From IMG/VR virus record IMGVR_UViG_3300013285_000069, positions 1-25,652 of that record: DNA of 25,652 bases. The stretch is one strand, 5' to 3'. The stretch is from a virus. Shown one piece after another: positions 3,672 through 19,187 of this stretch (the stretch's first letter is position 1; each line of letters opens with the position of its first letter). A model generated the notes under the pieces. That model did not search any database, was not told the DNA's origin, and saw nothing but the letters and a program-made list of their open reading frames with translations. Made by a program: the position numbers and the translations under genes.

Positions 3672-5477
3672 ATGTCAGGCATAGAAACAGCAGCAAATGA
3701 TTTATTTTTCAAATTGCGTAATCGCTTTCCTCATATCACTATGGGTGATGAAGATAGCACCACTACTAGTAATCCAACGGATGCTAAATTTTTTAGTTTT
3801 GATTACGAAGAAAATGATGTTAAGTTTGGAAATATTACTGCCAGTTTAATTGATGGCCAAAATCTAAAACTATACTTCAGTCAAGACGTTACCAAATACA
3901 TGGACCGTGAAGAAAAGCAAAGTTGGTATAGATTTCTACAGGAAATTAGAAAGTTTGCAAAGAGCCATATGTTAGGTTTAGATGTTCGCGATATCAGTAA
4001 AGATGTCTTAAACGATAAGGATTTAAAGTTTGTGTCAAATCAAAATAAAGAAAAAAGCCAAATTGGCGAAAGTCGTGTGCTATGGGCACGTCGCGGTACA
4101 GTCAGTGAAGGCGATGTAGGCAATGTGCGTGTGCATGTTGTTCATAGCGAGCGTATGGATGAGAATCCAAACAATAGACTACTTAGAGTTGACCGTATTT
4201 TTCTTGTTAACGAATCAGGTGAGCGTTTCCTGTTGCCATTTAAAAGTGTAATGGCAGCTAAGGCCATGGCTAATCACGTTGGCAGAGGTGGCAATCCATA
4301 TGATGGTACAGGTAAGCTGATCAGCACTGCTGTCAATGAGATGAGCAATCTACGTCGCTTTGCCAGTGCTACACGTCGTAAGACTTTTGAGAGTGAAGAT
4401 GCAAATCAAGTAATTACTGCTGCACAGGCAATTAAAGAAAGTATCAAGCGTAGTTTACATCGTTTAGCCAACAATACTAGATTTGATGAGAATTTAGAAG
4501 ATCTAGGCAAGCTACTTGCTGAACAGGAAGATGTAGAAGATATTAAGCCATACTTCACACAAACTGCATACAATGAGAATTTAGACAATTGGATTGGTAG
4601 TGCTGCAAAGGCATTTAAACAGTATAAGGGAAATATTATGGAAAATCTCAGAGAATCAGCTGGCTCTGTAGCACAGAAATTATCAGATCCAAATTGGCTT
4701 ATGGTATTAAAAGATGAACCAAGTGAAGACAGACTTATTACTACCAGCAAGTATGCAGATGGTCGTGCATTACTACGTCGCATCCTAGGAACTATTGCTG
4801 ATCGTGCCAGTATGGATGACAGTGATGTTGCAAATTGGGCAAGTCAAATTGGCCAGGATATGGAACTTGGTAATGCCAGTCAGCAGGATATGCAGATTGC
4901 ATTACAGTTGGCCAAGCGTTATCAAACTGATCTTGCACAGATGGCACAGAGCCCAGAGTATGCCAAGCAGATTCGTGTTGCTGCATTCGGTCAGAAGAAA
5001 GACCTGTATGGTAAGACAAAAGACGAGTCGATGGAATTTGAAGACTATGTAAACGGTGTAGGTGAAGATGGTCCAGTAATTCAACAAAGTGGTAGTAACC
5101 CATTGCCCCCAATGTCAGCAATGGATCGTATTCATCAAAAGCTAGGAACTGGTCCATTTGCTCCTCAGACAGTTCAGCCAACTAATACTGAACCACTGCC
5201 AGGAAGTCCAGGCGCCGGACCAGAAGATAGAGCAGCATTAACTCGCATGATTGATAATGAAAGCGAAGAAATGGACGAAGCTTGTGGTGATACTGCAATG
5301 GACAGAATCAGTGCAAGGGTAGCTCCCAGAGACGGCGAAACAACTCCAATGGAGCGTGTAAGTGAGCGTGTAGCTACTAGAACTTCAGCTGACACTGTTA
5401 ATGAAAAAGCAGTAACTAACGAAGCTCTTGATACTATGTTGTGGTTATCGGGCGTAAAAAAAAAAAGTCTGATGTAA
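3672..5477 (+). CDS. Large probable virion protein, frameshift donor (ORF A)
   Basis: 601 aa with no family I can name. The first 250 or so residues look globular (GNITASLIDGQNLKLYFSQD, SQIGESRVLWARRGT, VHVVHSERM, RLLRVDRIFLVNESGERFLLPF); the middle is helical and charged; residues beyond about 470 are Pro/Gly/Ser-rich and contain three M-(D/E)-R-(I/V) helices starting at M484, M543 and M560. The C-terminus carries LWLSGV (590-595), a variant of the LAG motif shared with the next three proteins. The last codons cross an A11 run (5456-5466), where the zero frame reads GTA AAA AAA AAA AGT and stops 9 nt later. A -1 slip there joins the following frame. Promoter class and neighbours suggest a structural or internal head protein; this is inference. 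Confidence 0.75.
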   Translation: MSGIETAANDLFFKLRNRFPHITMGDEDSTTTSNPTDAKFFSFDYEENDVKFGNITASLIDGQNLKLYFSQDVTKYMDREEKQSWYRFLQEIRKFAKSHMLGLDVRDISKDVLNDKDLKFVSNQNKEKSQIGESRVLWARRGTVSEGDVGNVRVHVVHSERMDENPNNRLLRVDRIFLVNESGERFLLPFKSVMAAKAMANHVGRGGNPYDGTGKLISTAVNEMSNLRRFASATRRKTFESEDANQVITAAQAIKESIKRSLHRLANNTRFDENLEDLGKLLAEQEDVEDIKPYFTQTAYNENLDNWIGSAAKAFKQYKGNIMENLRESAGSVAQKLSDPNWLMVLKDEPSEDRLITTSKYADGRALLRRILGTIADRASMDDSDVANWASQIGQDMELGNASQQDMQIALQLAKRYQTDLAQMAQSPEYAKQIRVAAFGQKKDLYGKTKDESMEFEDYVNGVGEDGPVIQQSGSNPLPPMSAMDRIHQKLGTGPFAPQTVQPTNTEPLPGSPGAGPEDRAALTRMIDNESEEMDEACGDTAMDRISARVAPRDGETTPMERVSERVATRTSADTVNEKAVTNEALDTMLWLSGVKKKSLM

Positions 5478-5992
5478 GCGAAGATGTTCCTGACGTTGAA
5501 TTAACAAAACCTAAATTTTCATTTAGTCCAAATGATAACAAATTTACTCAACTGCCAGACAAGGGGTTTTCGCCTGCCCCTAACATCGAACCTCCATCAA
5601 CGGCGCCGCCTACAAGTTCAGGGCCATTTAATTTAGGACCACCGGATCCAGTAGGACCAAATCCCAAAGCACCTTTTGAACCTAAAATATCTCCAGATGA
5701 AATTAGAGAACCTAATAAATTTAGTATAGGTGATACATTAAAAAGTATAGCAACAAAAGCATTGCCTAGAGTAGCAGGTGGTGCATTAGGTACTATACTA
5801 GATCCAACTCCAGCAGGTCAAGGCGACACAGGCCCACTTGATAAAGCTGCTAGTGCTATGTTTAATCCAACTCCTATATCAAAACAAAATGCTATGATGC
5901 CAGGAAAAACTGCCGACGCTATGCCTGCAGGAACTTTAACAAATCCAAATTTAGTTCGTATGAGAGATCTAGCTGGAATAGGAAGAAAGTAA
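5441..5992 (+). CDS. Pro-rich -1 frame ORF, probably fused to ORF A by frameshift (ORF B)
   Basis: The open frame runs from a GTG at 5441 (183 codons), but it has no Shine-Dalgarno and no ATG start, and it overlaps the end of ORF A. It is in the -1 frame relative to ORF A, and both share the A11 run at 5456-5466, which contains the classic slippery pattern A-AAA-AAA in the ORF A frame. The likely product is therefore a fusion of about 770 aa, ORF A continuing as KKKSDVSEDVPDVE. The extension is Pro/Gly-rich (SGPFNLGPPDPVGPNPKAP), has a Gly/Ala-hydrophobic stretch (ALPRVAGGALGTI) and ends with RMRDLAGIGRK, a LAG motif (L177-I180). Alternatives: transcriptional slippage on the A run, a homopolymer sequencing error (12 A would fuse the frames), or weak independent GTG initiation. 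Confidence 0.7.
   Translation: MVIGRKKKKSDVSEDVPDVELTKPKFSFSPNDNKFTQLPDKGFSPAPNIEPPSTAPPTSSGPFNLGPPDPVGPNPKAPFEPKISPDEIREPNKFSIGDTLKSIATKALPRVAGGALGTILDPTPAGQGDTGPLDKAASAMFNPTPISKQNAMMPGKTADAMPAGTLTNPNLVRMRDLAGIGRK
5456..5466 (+). promoter_or_regulatory. A11 slippery run, candidate -1 frameshift site
   Basis: Eleven A residues follow GGCGT and precede GTCTGATGTAA. In the ORF A frame the codons are GTA AAA AAA AAA AGT CTG ATG TAA; slipping back one base gives AAG TCT GAT GTA and opens the 552-nt downstream frame. I see no strong downstream stem-loop and no clear upstream Shine-Dalgarno stimulator. RNA polymerase slippage is as plausible as ribosomal slippage. Confidence 0.6.
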
Positions 5993-5993
5993 T

Positions 5994-8069
5994 ATGGATA
6001 AGAAATTAAATGAAGATTTAAACCGTATTAGAAAGCTATCTGGCTTAGTCGAAGACGATAGAACTTGGACAGAAAGATTGCCAGATGGTACGGTAAGAAC
6101 ACATCGATATGGATATAGTGATGAAAAGCCTGGCTATAATGGATACAATGATATAGGTGATGAAGGTAATGGACCAAGTAAAGGTTATGGTCTAGGAAGT
6201 GGACAATATGGAACAGGGACAGGTTCTGGATCTGCTGGCATTGGCTATGGGTCGGGCAATAGCGGCACTGGATTTGGTCAAGGCAACAGTCAAGGATCAA
6301 GCAGACAAGGAACTGGAAGTGGTAGCGGCTACGGACAAACGCAGGGGTTACCTGGTGGAGGCGCCGGTTCTTCCCCATCAGTGGGTGTCGGAAGTGGCAC
6401 AACAATTCAAAGATTACCCAGTGGCGGAACTATAACATCAACAATCACTGGCGGGTATCCTGGAGAATATTCTGATTCAGATTACGATGAGCCAGTAGCA
6501 AAACCTAGTAAAAATAGTAAAAGCAAACAACAACGTCCTGATCCGGAAGATGATCCTAGTTATGATGCTTATCCTGAAGTACCAAAAAATCAATATAAAG
6601 ATATGTCTAAGGAACCATCTCCATATGTAAATCCATCATGGCAGAAAGAACAAGATAGAATAAAACAACAACAGCAACAGCCATTACCTAGTGCTACTAC
6701 TTCGTTAGGCAAGGTTCCTCCTAAAGAACCTGTTAAAGTTGAGCCTTCTAAAGAAGTTCCAACATTACCCAGTTCTACTACTTCTCTAGGTAAAGCTCCG
6801 CCTACTAGTATTGCAAAAGACTTATTATTAAAGGAGCCTCCTAAAGAAGTTCCAGCATTACCTAATGCTACTAGCTCTTTAGGTAAACTTCCAACACCTG
6901 CTCCTAAAATTGAGCCACCCAAGCAGGAACCTGCTAAAAATGAGCTACCTAAAGAAGTTCCAACATTACCTAGTGCTACTACTTCGTTAGGTAAACTTCC
7001 ACCTAAACCAATGCCTAAAACACCTGAGACAACAGTTGTTAAGCATAATGAGAAACCATCGGATGATACTATTACTCCTTCACATCCAGGAATAACTGTT
7101 AATGCACCTACTGACAGCAAGCCGGTAGATACTTCAACTGTTGGTTCTGGTATAACCACTCCAGCAGCTATTCCTGCTCCTCCAGTAACTAGCCCTAAAA
7201 TAGATCTTCCAGTTGTTGACTTAACACCTACACACCCTGATAGACCTACAAAACCAGATTCAATGACACCTGATGCAGTTGACCTTCACATGCTTCAAGA
7301 ACCTCCAAGTAAAGAACCGGGAGTTGCACAACAGATATTATTACCTAAAAATGAACCTACACCACCAACTAATCCAACTAAACCAGCTGATCAACCTGCT
7401 AATATAGAACTTATGCCTATGAGCAAGGATGATGCAGATAAAGTGTTTGGTAAAATGCCTGGTTCATCAAATCCTTCTCCAAAACCTTCAGCAGCTGGCG
7501 CTGGTAGTGGTTCACCTGGTGATAGTGCAAATGGAACAAGCGGTGCAAGCGGAGAAAAAGGTGGAGGGGAAAAGGGTGGAAAATATATTCCAATTACTCC
7601 TAAGACAATGGGTTCTCCTGTAAGTGATCAACCAAGTTGGGCTGCACAACAACGTGCTTCTCAAGGTAAACCACTGGCTGGCGATCCTGAGATTAAAAAA
7701 CCCGAAGATATATCTGGAGCTAAAGGGTCTATACAGGCACCAAATGATGCAAATGCAGATATTATATCAAAAGGTAATAAAGCAACTATAAACATGTCTC
7801 CAGCTGATGCAGCTAAAGCACAGACTAATGTGTTTAAACCAGAAAGTCCTGGGACAGAAACTCCAGTGGATACTACACTGCCAGATGACGGAGCTCGTAT
7901 AATAGATATTAAAGGACCTGGCAATAAAAGCGAAAGCATGGAGCGTATGCTTCAGTTGGCTGGAATTAAAGAAAGCACCAGAGTAGAGCGTCAATTTTTA
8001 ACAGAATCTAGTTTACCTAAAACAAATAGTATAGCTGATACATTTAAGCGACTAGCTGGTCTGAAATAA
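5994..8069 (+). CDS. Low-complexity Gly/Pro-rich probable virion protein with terminal LAG motifs (ORF C)
   Basis: 691 aa, almost wholly low complexity. The N-terminus has RIRKLSGLVED (11-21): a LAG-type motif followed by L-V-E, which fits the T4 prohead-protease pattern (L/I)xE. Residues about 56-125 are Gly/Ser/Gln-rich. Four copies of LP(S/N)(A/S)T(T/S)SLGK(V/A/L)P occur at about 231-242, 258-269, 289-300 and 325-336, separated by EPPKEVP-type linkers. The rest is a Pro/Lys/Thr-rich linker. The C-terminus holds LQLAGIKES (653-661), then FLTESS (668-673, another LxE) and finally FKRLAGLK (684-691), nearly identical to the end of ORF D. The start is one base after the ORF B stop, with GGAAGAAAG as Shine-Dalgarno. 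No enzymatic domain is visible. Probably a disordered or fibrous virion or scaffold-core protein. Confidence 0.75.
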   Translation: MDKKLNEDLNRIRKLSGLVEDDRTWTERLPDGTVRTHRYGYSDEKPGYNGYNDIGDEGNGPSKGYGLGSGQYGTGTGSGSAGIGYGSGNSGTGFGQGNSQGSSRQGTGSGSGYGQTQGLPGGGAGSSPSVGVGSGTTIQRLPSGGTITSTITGGYPGEYSDSDYDEPVAKPSKNSKSKQQRPDPEDDPSYDAYPEVPKNQYKDMSKEPSPYVNPSWQKEQDRIKQQQQQPLPSATTSLGKVPPKEPVKVEPSKEVPTLPSSTTSLGKAPPTSIAKDLLLKEPPKEVPALPNATSSLGKLPTPAPKIEPPKQEPAKNELPKEVPTLPSATTSLGKLPPKPMPKTPETTVVKHNEKPSDDTITPSHPGITVNAPTDSKPVDTSTVGSGITTPAAIPAPPVTSPKIDLPVVDLTPTHPDRPTKPDSMTPDAVDLHMLQEPPSKEPGVAQQILLPKNEPTPPTNPTKPADQPANIELMPMSKDDADKVFGKMPGSSNPSPKPSAAGAGSGSPGDSANGTSGASGEKGGGEKGGKYIPITPKTMGSPVSDQPSWAAQQRASQGKPLAGDPEIKKPEDISGAKGSIQAPNDANADIISKGNKATINMSPADAAKAQTNVFKPESPGTETPVDTTLPDDGARIIDIKGPGNKSESMERMLQLAGIKESTRVERQFLTESSLPKTNSIADTFKRLAGLK
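6684..7001 (+). repeat. Four imperfect coding repeats (SLGK-P units)
   Basis: Within ORF C, four units encode LP-(S/N)-(A/S)-T-(T/S)-SLGK followed by V/A/L-P, spaced by 27, 31 and 36 residues. Nucleotide identity between copies is high (for example the shared ATTACC-AGT-CTACTACTTC stretches), which suggests repeat expansion by recombination. Confidence 0.7.
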
Positions 8070-8072
8070 ATA
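8065..8072 (+). promoter_or_regulatory. T4-like late promoter overlapping ORF C stop
   Basis: AATAAATA includes the TAA stop of ORF C (8067-8069). The predicted start at about 8078 leaves a short leader containing the Shine-Dalgarno CGGAG (8081-8085) before the ATG at 8092. Unlike the leaderless group, this gene uses a normal ribosome binding site. Confidence 0.6.
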
Positions 8073-8091
8073 GTATATCACGGAGATTAAA

Positions 8092-9795
8092 ATGGCCAAC
8101 GGCAAAAGAGAATTAATTGAAGATATTAGCGACATTCGTCGACTAGCTGGGCTGTCAGAAGCTCCTAAAAAACCAGCATCAAATCCTCAAGACATTGAAG
8201 GTAAGGGAGATTTAGGTGGTATATTTGGCAATCCTAAAGGCAGTGATTATCAGTCAAAAGGCGGACAAGTTGTTAGTCCTCAAGGCAAGGTAAATTGGGG
8301 CGATCCAGATAGTGCATCTGATTTCTTCCGTGCTGATAAGATGCAACAAGCTCAGCAAGCACAAGCTGAACCTGCACCAAAAGCAGCAGCACCAAAAGCA
8401 CCAGCACAATCAGTTGATGATATTAAAGCTTTCCAACGTGCAAATGGTCTTTCCCCAGATGGCATTGTTGGTCCCAAAACTAGAGAAGCTCAAGCTAGAG
8501 CTAATTCGACTCCTAAAGATCAAAGAAATACAATTGGCGGCGTAGCTCCTGAATTATCAACAGCACGTTATGATATGCCAGATAAGCCAACTGATACTGA
8601 AAAAGCTTTACAGTATCCACAAGGCGGTCCACCGCAGGCACAGACAAAACCGCAAGGTTCAGTTTATGCTCCACCGGCAGTACCAGGTACAGACACTGTT
8701 CCGCAGTCAATGTATAGAATTCCAGGTAGCGATATTGCTAATCCAGGTGTTCAAAAGCCAACACAAAGTATTACTAATCAACCACCTGCGGCAACTACAC
8801 CTAGACAACCTGAGATGATTAGCGATCCAGATAAATCTAGAAATACTTCCCCAAAAGAAGCGCCACCTCCATTACCTAGTCCCAAACCATTTGTTGAACC
8901 AAAAACATTTACTCCACCAGATAAAAAACCAGCAGCATCAAACGCTCCATATTCGCCCGGCGGCGGCGCAGTTGATGATAAGCGCACTTTCTTACAAAGA
9001 AATCTTCCAAATGCACTTGGCGGTTTAGATGCACCTCCTCAAATCAATCCATCAGCACCTAAACTAGAAATACCAAAAAATATAGCACCTGCTCCTATGC
9101 CAGTGATTAGAACTCCTACACCAAATGTTGACAATATGCCTGTTCAACAATTTAAAGGTCCTAACGTAGATCCAGGCATGGATGCAACTAACAAGCTACC
9201 AAAAATTGAACCTTTTAAAGGCGACATGGGAGATTCATTCACCGGCAGTGCTGGGCCCACACCTAAGGCTACAGCCCCTAAGCCGCAAGCAAACCTAAAT
9301 CGTTCTAGAGATGATATTAATTTTGATACTGCTGACAAAGATCCCGATACAATGAAAGACATTGTTAAGGAACTACGACAAATGGCTGGTATTCCAGAAG
9401 ACGGCATACCAGGACAGGGTATGGCACAGGAAGCAATGAATCGTTACGAGTCAGAAGAAAAAATGGATGAAGAAGATGAAATGGAAGAAGGTAACGAATT
9501 CTCCGGCGCATTAGCAAAAGCAAAGGCAACACATCAAGATAAATTTGAAGTTGGCGGAAAAACATATGATGTAAAAGAAGCTCAGGAGCGCACAATGAGT
9601 CGTGCAGCCAAGGGTTATGAAAAGTATGGCAAAGAAGGCATGAAAGCTCTGGCTAAAGCAGGCAAAGAAGGCAAAGATCTAGACAAAGTCAGAGACAAGT
9701 ACAACAAGTATGATGATAAAGTAGAAGAAGGCATCGAAGTAAATCCAATTAACGATAGCTTGGCTTTGATCAAGAGATTAGCAGGTCTAAAATAA
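8092..9795 (+). CDS. Probable virion protein with peptidoglycan-binding domain and LAG motifs (ORF D)
   Basis: 567 aa. The N-terminal tag DIRRLAGLSEAPKK (14-27) combines a LAG motif with L-S-E followed by A, a close match to the T4 gp21 protease consensus (L/I)xE|A. Residues about 107-138 (SVDDIKAFQRANGLSPDGIV, then GPKTREA) form a PG_binding_1-type repeat, which binds peptidoglycan. A Pro/Gln-rich linker follows, then LRQMAGIPEDG (428-438), another LAG motif with I-P-E. The C-terminal third has an acidic patch and a segment starting ALAKAKATHQDKFEVGGKTY and containing KGYEKYGKEGMKALAKAGKE, a module I recall in many marine T4-like phage proteins. The last residues are ALIKRLAGLK. Shine-Dalgarno CGGAG, 6 nt from the ATG. 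Likely packaged or structural; a role in crossing the cell wall is inferred from the peptidoglycan domain. Confidence 0.75.
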   Translation: MANGKRELIEDISDIRRLAGLSEAPKKPASNPQDIEGKGDLGGIFGNPKGSDYQSKGGQVVSPQGKVNWGDPDSASDFFRADKMQQAQQAQAEPAPKAAAPKAPAQSVDDIKAFQRANGLSPDGIVGPKTREAQARANSTPKDQRNTIGGVAPELSTARYDMPDKPTDTEKALQYPQGGPPQAQTKPQGSVYAPPAVPGTDTVPQSMYRIPGSDIANPGVQKPTQSITNQPPAATTPRQPEMISDPDKSRNTSPKEAPPPLPSPKPFVEPKTFTPPDKKPAASNAPYSPGGGAVDDKRTFLQRNLPNALGGLDAPPQINPSAPKLEIPKNIAPAPMPVIRTPTPNVDNMPVQQFKGPNVDPGMDATNKLPKIEPFKGDMGDSFTGSAGPTPKATAPKPQANLNRSRDDINFDTADKDPDTMKDIVKELRQMAGIPEDGIPGQGMAQEAMNRYESEEKMDEEDEMEEGNEFSGALAKAKATHQDKFEVGGKTYDVKEAQERTMSRAAKGYEKYGKEGMKALAKAGKEGKDLDKVRDKYNKYDDKVEEGIEVNPINDSLALIKRLAGLK

Positions 9796-13018: not shown

Positions 13019-13470
13019 TGTGGTATTCTAAGATAATATCAGATCTTGGTAATATGCCAGGGTTCATTGAATATTACGAAGAAGAACTAAAACAAGCTAA
13101 GTTTGATATTCAGGTAAAGGGCAATATTGAGAAAAGTATTGCTGCTTTACCTGGCATTACTGAGCAACGGTTTAATCAGCTTCAGGAAATTGAAGCTGTA
13201 TTAAACTTTCTAAATATACAAGTGCGTGTAATACGTCGCAAACATTTTCAAAAATACTTAGAACATTATGCCCGTGCTCTTAGCAGCAGAGATGCTGAAA
13301 AGTATGTTGATGGTGAACAAGAAGTTGTTGATTATGAAACCATCATCAATGAAGTAGCACTGCTACGAAACAAATGGCTAGGTGTAATGAAGGGAATTGA
13401 CAGTAAACAATGGCAGTTAAGCAACCTCGTTAAGCTTAAGGTTGCTGGAATGGAAGACTTTAGTATCTAA
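13018..13470 (+). CDS. uvsY: UvsY-like recombination mediator (probable)
   Basis: 150 aa, mostly helical and charged. The C-terminal two thirds contain VIRRKHFQKYLEHYARALSS, RDAEKY, then a VALLRNKWLGVMKGIDSKQW segment and LSNLVKLKVAGMED. Size (T4 UvsY is 137 aa), the central basic helix followed by Y-x-x-x-Y, the late-half 'KGID-KQWQLSNL' segment and the placement directly after uvsX fit UvsY of marine T4-like phages. UvsY loads UvsX on gp32-coated ssDNA. T4 similarity is too distant for me to align by eye, so the assignment leans on context. The stop overlaps by 11 bp the convergent epimerase gene. Confidence 0.7.
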   Translation: MWYSKIISDLGNMPGFIEYYEEELKQAKFDIQVKGNIEKSIAALPGITEQRFNQLQEIEAVLNFLNIQVRVIRRKHFQKYLEHYARALSSRDAEKYVDGEQEVVDYETIINEVALLRNKWLGVMKGIDSKQWQLSNLVKLKVAGMEDFSI

Positions 13471-14278
13471 GAAAGCCCAGCTGTAATCCCATTTTTGAAG
13501 TATTATAGCTGGCAAACTTACGATAATCCCCTGTATAATTATTAGGGCTTACTTCATCTACTATAATCTTTGCTTCACTAAATGTGATAAAATTAAAAGA
13601 TTTAGCAAGATCACTTAACAACATTTTATCCTGATAAACAAGATTAATATCTTTATGTGTTGCTTTACCGTTAGCAACAATGTCAATCATTGGGGGTATG
13701 TCCTCGAGGTTAATAAAATCAAAATACCTATCCTGATAGATGTGATAATCCTTCTTGGGATTACTGTGAATCTTCTTAAAAAATCTCTTGGGACTTTCGC
13801 TGTAATGGAATACGCCAAACAGTCTGAGATTATAGAATTCTTCATACTGGATTAGGTCTTTGGCAATTTGATTTTTAACAAAACCATATGAGTGCTTTGG
13901 CTCTTTATCAAAAATCTCAAGCTCATCTGCATAATCAATATTTGTATCCGTGTCAAACTCATTACCTGTAGCAAGATTAATTAGACGTTTAAACCTATGA
14001 CGATTACGAACAAGATTGTCCCACATACGAAGATTATCTCTAATAATAGGATCGTTCATTGAGTTTTTAAGCTCATACAAGTTTTCGCGACCTATTAAAG
14101 CAGTATGTATAACAAGATCAAAGTATATGCTGCCATTAAAGAATGTATTAACAGCATTTGCATCTAATAGATCTAACTTATCTCTGCTACATGCAAATAT
14201 TTGATGTCCTGCTTCTCTAAAGTATGCTGCAAGATATGAACCAATAAAGCCATTGGCGCCGGTAATCATAATACGCAT
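13460..14278 (-). CDS. NAD(P)-dependent SDR epimerase/reductase
   Basis: 272 aa extended short-chain dehydrogenase. Rossmann motif GANGFIGS at 7-14, DLLD acidic turn, VIHTA strand after it, NLATGNEF (T104 in the Ser/Thr position) and catalytic Y131-G-F-V-K135. Start taken at ATG 14278 (MRIMITG), because the upstream alternative is a TTG inside the preceding gene; the reading overlaps the end of that gene by 13 bp. Overall resembles GDP-fucose synthase, dTDP-4-keto-rhamnose reductase and UDP-sugar epimerase relatives; the substrate cannot be told from sequence. Co-directional with the glycosyltransferase-like gene and divergent from UDP-galactopyranose mutase, so nucleotide-sugar remodelling is the likely role. 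Confidence 0.88.
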   Translation of the reverse strand: MRIMITGANGFIGSYLAAYFREAGHQIFACSRDKLDLLDANAVNTFFNGSIYFDLVIHTALIGRENLYELKNSMNDPIIRDNLRMWDNLVRNRHRFKRLINLATGNEFDTDTNIDYADELEIFDKEPKHSYGFVKNQIAKDLIQYEEFYNLRLFGVFHYSESPKRFFKKIHSNPKKDYHIYQDRYFDFINLEDIPPMIDIVANGKATHKDINLVYQDKMLLSDLAKSFNFITFSEAKIIVDEVSPNNYTGDYRKFASYNTSKMGLQLGFLRY

Positions 14279-15090
14279 GTCATTGCCCAATCTTTGCCCC
14301 AGTCAGTTTTACCTTCAGGCACTGGTGGCCTCAATGCCAAGTAATCATATAGAAAATCTCTACTTCTTGCATCAATTGCACAGTCTTTAGCAGCAAGTAT
14401 CTTTCTCTGATCAGGCCCTAGTCTAGCATCATAAAGTTCTCTAAATGGTCTGATCTTCAAACGATCTTCATGCATTAGCAAGAATGAACTTATTAATCTT
14501 TCACAAATGAAACCTCTATAATCTAGTTTTTGATTGTCGCCATATCCAGCTGAACTGTTAAGAAGATCCAAATATTCATCAGGAAGTCTGCCACATACAT
14601 CAACAAATTGATGTAACATACCCATCATTCCAGCCCAAAACTTACCATTACCGACAAAATAGTTTGCACATAGATAATGTCTGGTCCCCATTGGTGCTTG
14701 TAGTCTTTTAGGATCAATATCCATATCAGCAAAGATACGCTCTGCTAGTTTTAATATTTCAGGATGACACCATTGTCCTTGCTCCCATACATTCCAATGA
14801 GTAACTGTTTCATGTGGGAAAGGATGAAATGTATAAACATCATAACCTGGATTAATATTAATATGATCCATAATGAAAGCAGCAGGAACACCTGGCATTT
14901 TGCGTTTCCATTGCCAACTAAAATGACCCCATAAATCCTCGTTAGTTTTCAACGCTTCTTGAAATATCTTAGTATAGATATAATACTCGTGCAAATTTAC
15001 CACCGGATTAGCAGTGTTATCATAAGGAGTAAATTCTGGATCTAAATGAGCTTGTTGCTCTTCTTTGTAATAGGCTTGAAATATTTTCAT
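14266..15090 (-). CDS. Glycosyltransferase-like surface-sugar protein
   Basis: 274 aa. Begins MKIFQAYYKEEQQAHLDPEF; later DLWGHFSWQWKRKMPGVPAA, NPGYDVYTFHPFP, NYFVGNGKFWAGMM and YRGFICERLISSFL. The 'aspects seen' pattern (D-x-W-G-x-x-S-W, NPGYDVY-FxPFP, later F-ER-L-S) resembles uncharacterised glycosyltransferases in capsule/LPS clusters, with the final E-R-L region like DUF4422-type enzymes, but I see no certain DXD motif. Confidence rests partly on the neighbours: an SDR enzyme 3', and UDP-galactopyranose mutase divergent upstream. No Shine-Dalgarno precedes the ATG at 15090. It would transfer or modify a sugar in the cytoplasm or at the inner membrane. Confidence 0.5.
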   Translation of the reverse strand: MKIFQAYYKEEQQAHLDPEFTPYDNTANPVVNLHEYYIYTKIFQEALKTNEDLWGHFSWQWKRKMPGVPAAFIMDHININPGYDVYTFHPFPHETVTHWNVWEQGQWCHPEILKLAERIFADMDIDPKRLQAPMGTRHYLCANYFVGNGKFWAGMMGMLHQFVDVCGRLPDEYLDLLNSSAGYGDNQKLDYRGFICERLISSFLLMHEDRLKIRPFRELYDARLGPDQRKILAAKDCAIDARSRDFLYDYLALRPPVPEGKTDWGKDWAMTCVL

Positions 15091-15106
15091 CGTTGATACT
15101 TAGTTG

Positions 15107-15115
15107 TGTTATAAT
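15107..15115 (+). promoter_or_regulatory. Extended -10 promoter for UDP-galactopyranose mutase
   Basis: TGTTATAAT is a perfect extended -10 element. TTGATA at 15093 is only 11 bp away and is too close to be the -35. The opposite strand reads TATAAC at nearly the same bases, so this may be a shared divergent promoter for the gene ending at 15090. AGAGG at 15123-15127 is the ribosome binding site for the ATG at 15134. Confidence 0.5.
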
Positions 15116-15133
15116 TAACAATAGAGGTTTTAG

Positions 15134-16267
15134 ATGCAGGAATCAATTAATAATTGCGACATAGTAGTAGTTGGTGCAGGCTTGTTTGGTACTGTCATTG
15201 CTGAACAAGCCAGCTGGGATGGACTTAAAGTATTAGTAATAGAAACGAGAAATCACATAGGCGGTAACTGTTATACAGAAGATGATGCTGAAACAGGCAT
15301 CAACATTCATAGATATGGTCCGCATATTTTTCATACCAGTAACGAACGGGTATGGCGATATATTAATCGATTTACGGAATTCAATAGCTACAGACATCAG
15401 TGTATGAGTCGTGTGGGTAAGAAGACTTATTCTATGCCTATAAACTTAGCAACAATAAATCAGCATTTCAAAAAGAATTGGTCACCTACACAAGCACGAC
15501 TGTTTTTTCAAGGTTATAAAGATGCTTATAACGATCCTCAAAACTTTGAAGAACAAGCTATGTCATTAATGGGCAATGACCTATATCGTATGCTGTTTCG
15601 TGAATATACAATTAAGCAGTGGGATAAGGATCCTCGTGACTTGCCTGCCAGTTTAGCACGCCGACTGCCTGTTAGATACAATTACAATACACGTTATTAT
15701 AATGACGTATATGAAGGCATTCCAGTCGATGGCTACACTCCAATATTTGAAAAGATGTTAGGTAGCCCTAAGATTGAACTGCGCCTTGGTACAGATTACT
15801 TTGCTATCAGAGATCAAATTCCCAAGGACAAGCTAGTTGTTTATACTGGCCCAATTGATAAATTTTTTGATTATCGTTATGGCATACTCAACTGGCGCAC
15901 TTGTGACTTTGTATTCAAAAAGTTTGATGTTGAGGATTGGCAAGGCGTTACGCAGATCAATTATCCCAGCTTGGATATTCCTTATACCAGAACCATTGAA
16001 TTCAAACATTTCCATCCTGAGAAGAATTATACTAAAGAAGCTACTGTTGTTAGCTTTGAATACAGTAGATCAGCCGGAGAGAAGGATACTCCATACTATC
16101 CTGTAAATACTACTAAAGACAAAGAAATTAATGCTCTATATCAATTAGACGCTAAGAATTTAACAAATACAATCATTGGTGGCAGACTGGGCGAATATAT
16201 GTATTATGATATGCATCAAGTAATTGGTGCTGCATTATCAACATATGAAAAACGTATTAAAAAATGA
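15134..16267 (+). CDS. glf: UDP-galactopyranose mutase
   Basis: 377 aa, the usual Glf length. FAD/NAD-binding start DIVVVGAGLFGTVIAEQ (9-25) with GxGxxG, then EtRNHIGGNCY, the RYGPHIFHTSN motif, KTYSMPINLATINQHF, FREYTIKQWDKDP, ARRLPVRYNYNTRYYND and the C-terminal GGRLGEYMYYDMHQVIGAAL. All are conserved Glf segments contacting FAD and UDP-sugar. It isomerises UDP-galactopyranose to UDP-galactofuranose in the cytoplasm, the donor for galactofuranose in O-antigen or capsule. The stop overlaps the methyltransferase start (ATGA). Phage copies are unusual enough to suggest host-surface or phage-glycan modification. Confidence 0.95.
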   Translation: MQESINNCDIVVVGAGLFGTVIAEQASWDGLKVLVIETRNHIGGNCYTEDDAETGINIHRYGPHIFHTSNERVWRYINRFTEFNSYRHQCMSRVGKKTYSMPINLATINQHFKKNWSPTQARLFFQGYKDAYNDPQNFEEQAMSLMGNDLYRMLFREYTIKQWDKDPRDLPASLARRLPVRYNYNTRYYNDVYEGIPVDGYTPIFEKMLGSPKIELRLGTDYFAIRDQIPKDKLVVYTGPIDKFFDYRYGILNWRTCDFVFKKFDVEDWQGVTQINYPSLDIPYTRTIEFKHFHPEKNYTKEATVVSFEYSRSAGEKDTPYYPVNTTKDKEINALYQLDAKNLTNTIIGGRLGEYMYYDMHQVIGAALSTYEKRIKK

Positions 16268-16983
16268 AAATTAATGCAACACTACAAATTTTGAATCAAT
16301 ATCAAGACTTCATTGATAATATCCATGTTGTTGCAGACATGGGCTGCGGCCATGGCGATGATGCATGGTGTTGGGCCAATTTAACTAAAGATGATGGAAC
16401 GCCTCGAACTATTCAAGTCAATGCCGTTGATAACAATTTACAATGGCATTCGCTGCCTAGGCACGATAATATCGATTATATTGAGAAAGATTTCTCATCA
16501 TCGGGATTAGCTCCCAATAGCCAAGATTTCTTATGGTCACATAATAGCTTACAGTATAGTATTAATCCAATTCAAACACTGTTGCATTGGTGGGAGATTA
16601 TGAAACCCGAAGCAATGTTATTAGTTACTTTGCCTTACAATTATACAGTTGACAATCACAGAGACTTTTTGAAAGTAAATTCAACTTATCATAATGGTTG
16701 TTTTTTTAATTATACGTTGGGTAATTTGATTATGATGCTTGCTGCCACTGGATTTGACTGTAGAAATAGCCATTTTCGTTTTAATAGAGCAGAAAAGTCT
16801 ATTCAAGCAGCAGTATACAAGCTACCAACCAAACCTAATCCAACCTTAAATTGGTATGAAATGTGTGAAAGAAAGATGCTGCCACTGTGTTTAGAGCAAC
16901 CAATTCTAAACAATGGCACATTTAATGATACTGATTTGGTTGTTGAGTGGATTGATCGCACTCAATATATGCTATCTCTATAA
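16264..16983 (+). CDS. SAM-dependent class I methyltransferase
   Basis: 239 aa. Motif I VADMGCGHGDD (23-33) binds SAM; VNAVDNNLQ supplies the acidic strand-2 residue; NIDYIEKDF and FLWSHNSLQYSINP (strand 4 with a W-S-H-N instead of a D-PP motif, so not a typical DNA amino-methylase); then LLHWWEIMKPEAMLLVTLP, the standard post-motif helix and strand 5. Translationally coupled to glf by a 4-bp overlap. The DNA-methylase signature is missing and the partner is a sugar enzyme, so O-methylation of a sugar or other small molecule is more likely than DNA methylation. Target unknown. Confidence 0.8.
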   Translation: MKINATLQILNQYQDFIDNIHVVADMGCGHGDDAWCWANLTKDDGTPRTIQVNAVDNNLQWHSLPRHDNIDYIEKDFSSSGLAPNSQDFLWSHNSLQYSINPIQTLLHWWEIMKPEAMLLVTLPYNYTVDNHRDFLKVNSTYHNGCFFNYTLGNLIMMLAATGFDCRNSHFRFNRAEKSIQAAVYKLPTKPNPTLNWYEMCERKMLPLCLEQPILNNGTFNDTDLVVEWIDRTQYMLSL

Positions 16984-17145: not shown

Positions 17146-17724
17146 ATGAAGAAACTTATTACAGCATTGTTTGCCCTCGCGGCAGGCGCATCAGTGGCAG
17201 CCGCTGCTGATCTTCCATCCAAGAGTGCAGCCGCTGCTCCAGCAGTTTCAACAAGTGCTTTTGGACTAAGCGGATGGTATGCCGGCGGTTTTGTCGGTGG
17301 AAACTTCGACGATACTAACAAGTTCAAGTACGACAATACTCCAAAGGTATTTGGTGCTATTGCTGGATACGAGTGGAACAAGTACATCCGCACTGAAGCA
17401 ACGTTCGATTATACCGCTAAGCTAGTCCCAATCACTCCTCCCAAGACTGGACAGACTGCATTTGGTAATGCAGTTGTAAGCTACCCAGTTGGGTTTGGCG
17501 TAACTCCATACCTCTTGGCAGGTGTTGGTTACGGTTGGGGTGCATGGGATAAGGTCGTCGGAAAGAATGATGATCGTACCCTTTACAACATTGGAGCTGG
17601 TCTTCGTTATGACCTTACTAAGAGCTTCGAAGTTGACGGTCGTTACCGTTATGTTAACGGTTTGACTGCGCAGAAGTTCGATAACAACCATGTTGTTACG
17701 CTTGGTGTAAACTACAAGTTCTAA
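17146..17724 (+). CDS. Outer-membrane beta-barrel protein (Omp25/RopB-like)
   Basis: 192 aa. Signal peptide MKKLITALFALAAGASVAAA, cleavage before or within AADLPSK, then an Ala/Ser linker. Mature domain of about 150 aa has eight alternating strands rich in Gly and aromatic residues (GWYAGGFVGGNF, FGAIAGYEW, IRTEATFDYTA, VSYPVGFGVTPYLLAGVGYG, YNIGAGLRYDL, FEVDGRYRYVNG, HVVTLGVNYKF) and ends in Phe, the BAM insertion signal. The AADLP start of the mature part is typical of alphaproteobacterial Omp25/31-type porins. Monocistronic: dual promoter, leader, strong AAGGAAAAAG site and strong terminator, implying high expression. Likely acquired from the host. Possible roles: altering receptor access (superinfection exclusion) or envelope repair; not decided by sequence. 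Confidence 0.9.
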   Translation: MKKLITALFALAAGASVAAAADLPSKSAAAAPAVSTSAFGLSGWYAGGFVGGNFDDTNKFKYDNTPKVFGAIAGYEWNKYIRTEATFDYTAKLVPITPPKTGQTAFGNAVVSYPVGFGVTPYLLAGVGYGWGAWDKVVGKNDDRTLYNIGAGLRYDLTKSFEVDGRYRYVNGLTAQKFDNNHVVTLGVNYKF

Positions 17725-18545: not shown

Positions 18546-19187
18546 TTGTTTTACACTATCTATAAAATAACAAATTTAATAAACAACAAATTTTATATAG
18601 GAAAACATCAAACTAATAATGTTGATGATGGGTATATGGGTTCTGGTAAGTTAATTATAGAAGCTATTAAAAAATATGGGGTAGATAATTTCAAGAAAGA
18701 TATACTTTATATATTTGATAACGAAAAAGACATGAATAACGCAGAGAAAGATTTAGTTATTTTATCTGAAAATAGTTACAATCTATGTCCCGGTGGTCGA
18801 GGTGGTTTTGGATACATTAATAAAAATATCGATTTACAACAAAGAAATAGAGATATAAACTCTCGTAAAAATTATAATGATCCAGTATTACGACAACGAC
18901 TTTCTGAAGGACAAAAAAGAGCACTTCCTTTTAGAAAACCCCCAGTGATATCGGATGAATCGAGATCTAAAAAACTTGCACCGTTAAAAAGAGGCAATAC
19001 CCCTGAAGCAATTATAAAGAAAAAAGAAACTTGGAAGAAAAATAATAGAGGCATTGGTAAAAATAATTCTCAATTTGGTACTTGTTGGGTTACGAATGAA
19101 ATAGAAAATAAGAAAATTAAAAAAGAAGAAATTGATTTCTATTTAAATAACGGGTATAATAAAGGTAGAAAGATTAAACATCAATGA
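18546..19187 (+). CDS. GIY-YIG homing endonuclease (Seg/I-TevI-like)
   Basis: 213 aa from a TTG start, fixed by ACGGAG in the hairpin arm. N-terminal nuclease domain (1-85): YTIY (3-6) and FYIG (16-19) are the GIY and YIG elements, GSGKLIIEAIKKYG with KYGVDNFKKDIL is the usual third block, and the Glu in NNAEKDL (about 67) is the metal ligand. The linker and C-terminal DNA-binding part (NSQFGTCWVTNEIENKKIKK and the final YNKGRK) match the repeats seen in phage Seg-like free-standing endonucleases. Codon use is more AT-rich than in neighbours (many AAA/ATA/AAT), consistent with a mobile gene. It cuts an allele lacking it and spreads by recombination. Overlaps the next gene by ATGA. Confidence 0.9.
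   Translation: MFYTIYKITNLINNKFYIGKHQTNNVDDGYMGSGKLIIEAIKKYGVDNFKKDILYIFDNEKDMNNAEKDLVILSENSYNLCPGGRGGFGYINKNIDLQQRNRDINSRKNYNDPVLRQRLSEGQKRALPFRKPPVISDESRSKKLAPLKRGNTPEAIIKKKETWKKNNRGIGKNNSQFGTCWVTNEIENKKIKKEEIDFYLNNGYNKGRKIKHQ

Follow-up and report, generated by a model that had tools for sequence, protein, structure and literature searches.

The 25.6 kb virus fragment analysed here (the window; IMG/VR record IMGVR_UViG_3300013285_000069, 25,652 nucleotides) derives from a T4-like jumbo phage with PA5oct, Phosso, Atu_ph07 and 121Q/RaK2 as relatives, and four of its open reading frames (ORFs), A to D, carry copies of a short LAG(L/I) peptide (Table 1). By sequence, this peptide is the conserved C-terminal tail of the gp22-type scaffold of the clade. 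We think it likely that the peptide, here called the tag, is a prohead-targeting signal taken from, or shared with, the scaffold tail, which would dock on the major capsid protein (MCP), allow the co-assembly of A/B, C and D, and then be released by protease. A sequence-only reading of the window had proposed a distributed targeting and processing tag, and its terminal placement, its conservation at the protein level, the (L/I/V)xE sites and the presence of tagged proteins or homologues in virions lend good support to that proposal, which did not include the origin of the peptide in the scaffold tail.

In Phosso, Atu_ph07 and PA5oct, the gene flanked by those of the gp21-type protease and gp23 has the same tail. 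This gene is the gp22-type scaffold (phrog_10922), annotated as a scaffolding protein in MIJ3, 121Q, Munch and others. A scan of IMG/VR with patterns lying outside the tail, in which match ranking used the whole protein, retrieved 80 scaffold loci; all of the complete scaffolds (78/78) have hxx(L/I)xxLAG(L/I)K, or a variant close to it, at their C-terminus, with the gp23 gene directly downstream. The tail is also present in 10 named jumbo phages, in some of them in divergent form; diverged tails ((L/I/N/R)(A/S)GI) occur in RaK2, 121Q, Vibrio 2.275.O, SCTP-2, XacN1, XaC1 and CBB. It was not found in T4, the cyanophage S-RIM14, phiM9 or the ackermannvirus SS9. In the window, the ends of D (IKRLAGLK) and C (FKRLAGLK) match scaffold tails, and the arrangement hxx(L/I)(K/R)xLAG(L/I), no more than 8 residues from the C-terminus, is found in B, C and D as well as in homologues of ORF A. 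The score of the N-terminal copy in ORF D lies inside the range of scaffold tails. A to D are not themselves gp22-type scaffolds, given that they have no match to phrog_10922 and that their genes lie near the terminase gene (TerL). The scaffold genes of PA5oct (NC_071039.1 gp330), Phosso (245307-246716) and Atu_ph07 (171445-172716) are labelled 'hypothetical protein' or 'DNA double-strand break repair Rad50 ATPase', and are probably mis-annotated gp22-type scaffolds.

The shared element comprises some 10-14 residues with an L/I ladder; a definition of the tag as the mere LAG tetrapeptide was rejected, since the profile needs this ladder. The profile has 10 columns and was built from 52 distinct scaffold tails only, and ORFs were called mechanically. 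Every peptide quoted in the sequence-only reading was found in the window, and [LM][AS]G[LIV] occurs 9 times in A to D compared with 0.36 in shuffles. At 11.5 bits or more, the profile gives 6 matches in A to D (0.013 in shuffles) and none in the 31 other ORFs of the window, a frequency far above chance. Above 8.5 bits the window contains these six sites and nothing more; the internal tag of ORF C, whose homologue in the relative G012 scores 11.2 bits, and the tag of ORF A lie below this cut-off.

Genome-wide tests were done on relatives because the window is only a 25.6 kb fragment. No head genes came up when the 12 IMG/VR relatives closest to it were searched with PF03420 and PF07068, since these contigs are fragments as well. 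Across 4937 ORFs from 13 genomes or contigs, 35 matches of at least 14 bits were obtained, scaffolds included, against 2.0 in shuffled and 1 in reversed sequences; at 11-13 bits, a few tagged ORFs are expected by chance. Eight genomes whose scaffold has the LAG tail yield 45 profile matches where 11.3 are expected. Genomes without such a tail (T4, S-RIM14 and part of SS9) yield 3 against 2.0, near chance. These counts bear on the idea that the tag is a generic amphipathic helix or a tail/neck assembly peptide, with a coincidental likeness to the scaffold and with A to D as neck or tail components. Several tagged genes do lie near TerL and head-completion genes, and the peptidoglycan-binding domain of ORF D would suit a tail or ejected protein, but the specificity of the profile (35 real against 2.0 shuffled matches) and the counts close to chance where T4-like genomes lack the LAG scaffold tail make this explanation quite improbable. 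ORF D might, with its PG_binding_1 domain, encode an ejected or cell-wall-acting virion protein.

Outside the scaffold, tags are found at C-termini, at N-termini and inside proteins. In non-scaffold proteins of 100 amino acids (aa) or more, 10 of 29 non-redundant tags are C-terminal (0.7 expected) and 7 are N-terminal (2.5 expected). T4 gp21 cuts after L/I-x-E (PMC9026906). Within 10 residues behind non-C-terminal tags, (L/I/V)xE is present in 18 of 30 non-redundant cases against a background of 17% (p~1.5e-7), and the strict (L/I)xE in 13 of 30 against 12%; the tag set was thinned at 0.7 similarity, residual relatedness makes the p-values optimistic, and V was added to the site pattern post hoc, after looking at PA5oct. 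The LSE/LAE-A behind the N-terminal tag of ORF D is kept in the relatives G001 and G012. C-terminal copies have no (L/I)xE behind them, and tag and cleavage site are therefore separable. Cleavage at an LxE site that is conserved in the MCPs of the clade would give a product of 36.5-37.6 kDa, which fits the 37 kDa estimated for the mature MCP of 121Q by sodium dodecyl sulfate polyacrylamide gel electrophoresis (PMC5646251). It has to be considered whether the tag is a docking site for the prohead protease, marking gp21-type substrates without any targeting role, as an excess of (L/I/V)xE well above background might suggest. The C-terminal copies without a site behind them argue against this, as do the MCP, which was not picked up in tag searches in spite of its conserved LxE sites, and T4 gp21, which needs only L/I-x-E (PMC9026906); we regard a docking role of this kind as very improbable.

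The alignment and the predicted structure show a common layout for the scaffold: a long helical rod, then a flexible linker, an (L/I)xE site and TG(D/N)(K/R), and at the end the helix hxx(L/I)(K/R)xLAG(L/I)K. In the AlphaFold2 model, the long helical rod leads into a linker that is disordered (319-347), and residues 348-369 form the terminal helix, with a predicted local distance difference test (pLDDT) value of ~62 at the tag. Nearly all rows of the alignment have (L/I)xE and TG(D/N)(K/R) ahead of the tail. This positional conservation was used for the scaffold site and not enrichment, as LxE just before the tail (71/78) does not differ significantly from the 79% background set by the E-rich rod. 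In P22 gp8, the C-terminal helices of the scaffold bind the coat protein, and loss of 11 terminal residues abolishes binding (PMC9965877). The terminal helix of the clade's scaffold most likely docks inside the assembling shell, on the MCP, as P22 scaffold tails do. The products of A/B, C and D, which bear the same helix, would be co-assembled into the prohead core, and the gp21-type protease would cut after (L/I/V)xE beside N-terminal and internal tags and in the linker ahead of C-terminal ones. Scaffold and cargo would thus be freed together, and the cargo would remain in the head.

The most likely partner of the tag is the MCP, the other candidate being the scaffold core, in which the tails would bundle with each other and with the tags of the cargo. 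The internal proteins of T4 co-purify with gp22, their capsid-targeting sequence (CTS) gives affinity for the core (PMC9026906), and the tails could self-associate as amphipathic helices. Docking on the core is nevertheless unlikely in our view, given that the tag is the scaffold's own tail behind a disordered linker, the position used for coat binding in P22. Taken further, docking on the MCP would amount to a modular cargo-loading code, in which the shell-binding helix of the scaffold is placed at either end of, or inside, diverse, fast-evolving cargo and the protease frees both; such scaffold mimicry across the RaK2/PA5oct/Atu_ph07-like clade has, we estimate, an even chance of being correct. 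The reading matters for how jumbo phages select, among their many head proteins, those that are loaded; a protein inner body is present in 121Q and phAPEC6 (PMC5646251, PMC7247149). With a searchable peptide in common with the scaffold, internal head proteins could be predicted from sequence, the site of contact between scaffold and shell in T4-like jumbo heads would be indicated, and a tag would be at hand for bringing proteins of choice into very large capsids.

The sequence-only reading had compared the tag with the CTS of T4. By function, the tag would be a capsid-targeting signal. It resembles the CTS of IPI, IPII, IPIII and Alt in being a short peptide on unrelated internal head proteins, next to an (L/I)xE site of the gp21 type (PMC9026906), as in LSE|A, LVE|D, IKE|S and IPE|D in the window, the C-terminal copies excepted. 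However, the T4 CTS is only N-terminal, has 10-19 aa and lacks a LAG motif, whereas the tag is also C-terminal and internal and equals the C-terminal tail of the scaffold; N-terminal copies are confined to C, D and some relatives. T4 gp22 ends in DIVSVYAKVASRF, a tail unrelated to that found here, and the T4 proteome gives only chance matches to the profile. Judged by sequence and position, the tag is not a CTS of the T4 type, and its origin differs too.

Encapsulin cargo-loading peptides and the C-terminal domain of the herpesvirus scaffold are cases in which a C-terminal peptide on a cargo or protease binds the interior of an HK97-fold shell. Their sequences and systems differ from those considered here, and they may serve as an analogy only. 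P22 gp8 likewise has a C-terminal scaffold helix behind a flexible part, which holds the shell (PMC9965877), but no sequence relation to the tag is shown, the P22 scaffold is not proteolysed, and sharing of its tail with cargo is not described there. The N-terminal packaging signal of P1 DarB is a short peptide that suffices to carry a reporter into heads (PMC9024508); unlike the tag, it is N-terminal, has no consensus among Dar proteins and no known scaffold counterpart. In SPN3US and phiKZ, many head proteins are processed by a gp21-related protease (PMC10052503), but the cuts are at AxE, the propeptides are mostly long and N-terminal, and no shared LAG tag is described. A literature search for the motif string found no relevant paper among those listed.

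Homologues of ORF A with a terminal tag are present in Phosso, in G014, G016 and G017, and in the 12 IMG/VR relatives fetched for comparison. In most of these 12, ORF A ends exactly in …NDSLALM(R/K)KLAGL(R/K) or …LAGIG(K/R)(Q/K), and the stretch preceding the tail varies in length and sequence. The codons of the tail show 127 synonymous against 37 non-synonymous pairwise differences across relatives, related pairs not being independent. According to another alternative, gene ends were recently duplicated or recombined and so spread the tag without function; it draws on the similar low-complexity style and three-tag arrangement of C and D. Protein-level conservation with mostly synonymous change runs counter to it, and duplication at the DNA level was rejected because the tags of the window are encoded by codons that differ at most positions; already disfavoured, this explanation has hardly any probability left. 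Several relatives have, after ORF A, a small ORF beginning MSDTLNLMRKLAGL. ORFs of 71-91 aa in this place (L003 12011-12223, L005 4424-4648, L007 12023-12259 and others), not present in the window, start M(S/N)DTLNLMRKLAGL, mostly followed by SE, TE or ET. A family of 66-73 aa is encoded near TerL (L002 5042-5239, L003 5390-5608, L013 6333-6551, L250 8859-9074). Upstream of TerL, a protein of 216-304 aa (L002 3157-3804 and homologues in G002, G005, G006, G008, G010 and G011) has a conserved internal TLSGSDAVLAEILKLAG(Q/M)IGAKT.

The tagged genes of the window had been counted as four consecutive proteins. Their number is probably three, A and B being split by a difference in poly-A length. In G001 and G012, A and B form a single fused ORF of 825 and 860 aa, respectively, with A9 where the window has A11, and for this reason they are probably one gene in its intact form. 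Sequencing error, real mutation and slippage cannot be told apart here as the cause of the A11 run.

In PA5oct, the syntenic homologue of ORF A, gp278, was detected in virions by electrospray ionisation tandem mass spectrometry (ESI-MS/MS). The tagged non-scaffold proteins of at least 15 bits, gp281, gp249 and gp149, are all ESI-MS/MS positive (3/3, against 93 of 445 coding sequences; p=0.009). The scaffold gp330 was not detected by ESI-MS/MS of virions; in phAPEC6, the scaffold was seen at just 4.9% coverage (PMC7247149). CBB gp213 and gp214, annotated as virion structural proteins, contain tag-like words. In the model of ORF A (mean pLDDT 61), the N-terminal part is folded and the tail is disordered. 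The model has no match in the PDB at E<=0.001, and most of the viral proteins that it matches are uncharacterized ones from phages.

Several observations weigh against a prohead-targeting role. The PA5oct enrichment is built on 3-6 proteins (p 0.009 and 0.002), of which gp149, a predicted ATPase, may be a chance match, and the PA5oct homologue of ORF A has just a weak internal KRLSGV. The 66-73 aa proteins start M(D/N)xxELxxLAGI(N/K) without (L/I)xE behind, and may put the motif to another use. The window record has no scaffold gene of its own, and its TerL is 62-64% identical to that of the nearest genomes in which a scaffold accompanies TerL.

Table 1. Tagged ORFs of the window, their tag copies and associated features (positions in the window; | marks the putative cut).
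Feature	Position	Strand	Remarks
ORF A	3672..5477	+	virion structural protein family phrog_13484, E=3e-10; weak tag at 3' end
Weak tag LDTMLWLSGV of ORF A	5427..5456	+	scores under the 8.5-bit cut-off; lies internally where relatives have A+B fused
A11 run splitting A from B	5456..5466	+	A9 in G001 and G012
ORF B	5441..5992	+	low-complexity C-terminal part of A, frame -1
C-terminal tag LVRMRDLAGI-GRK of ORF B	5951..5980	+	12.6 bits
ORF C	5994..8069	+	low-complexity; N-terminal, near-C-terminal and C-terminal tags
N-terminal tag LNRIRKLSGL of ORF C	6018..6047	+	11.6 bits; then LVE|D (6045-6053)
Internal tag MERMLQLAGI of ORF C	7938..7967	+	motif match, below the 8.5-bit cut-off; then IKE|S (7965-7973)
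Putative release site LTE|S of ORF C	7998..8006	+	upstream of the C-terminal tag, as in scaffolds (alignment)
C-terminal tag ADTFKRLAGL-K of ORF C	8034..8063	+	15.4 bits
ORF D	8092..9795	+	low-complexity; three tags; PG_binding_1 domain
N-terminal tag ISDIRRLAGL of ORF D	8125..8154	+	25.1 bits; then LSE|A (8152-8160)
PG_binding_1 (PF01471) in ORF D, aa 108-133	8413-8490		Pfam E=1.5e-9
Internal tag VKELRQMAGI of ORF D	9364..9393	+	13.2 bits; then IPE|D (9391-9399)
C-terminal tag LALIKRLAGL-K of ORF D	9760..9789	+	20.3 bits

The best matches of the window's TerL are PA5oct/Paride (54%), Phosso (51%) and Atu_ph07 (48%). ORF A lies directly after TerL, with one opposite-strand ORF between, and ahead of a gp32-type single-stranded DNA-binding protein (phrog_1192) and a RecA-like ORF; the same gene order is found in Paride, PA5oct, Phosso and CBB. 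Both homology and the position between TerL and gp32/UvsX place ORF A in phrog_13484. By eye, a sugar/glycan-like cluster (epimerase-, UDP-galactopyranose-mutase- and methyltransferase-like) was noted inside the replication region (13460-16983), as was a GIY-YIG-like homing endonuclease ORF (18546-19187). The ORF at 17146-17724 (MKKLITALFALAAGASVAAAADLPS...) resembles a small alphaproteobacterial outer-membrane beta-barrel protein and has a homologue in L007 (16985-17554).

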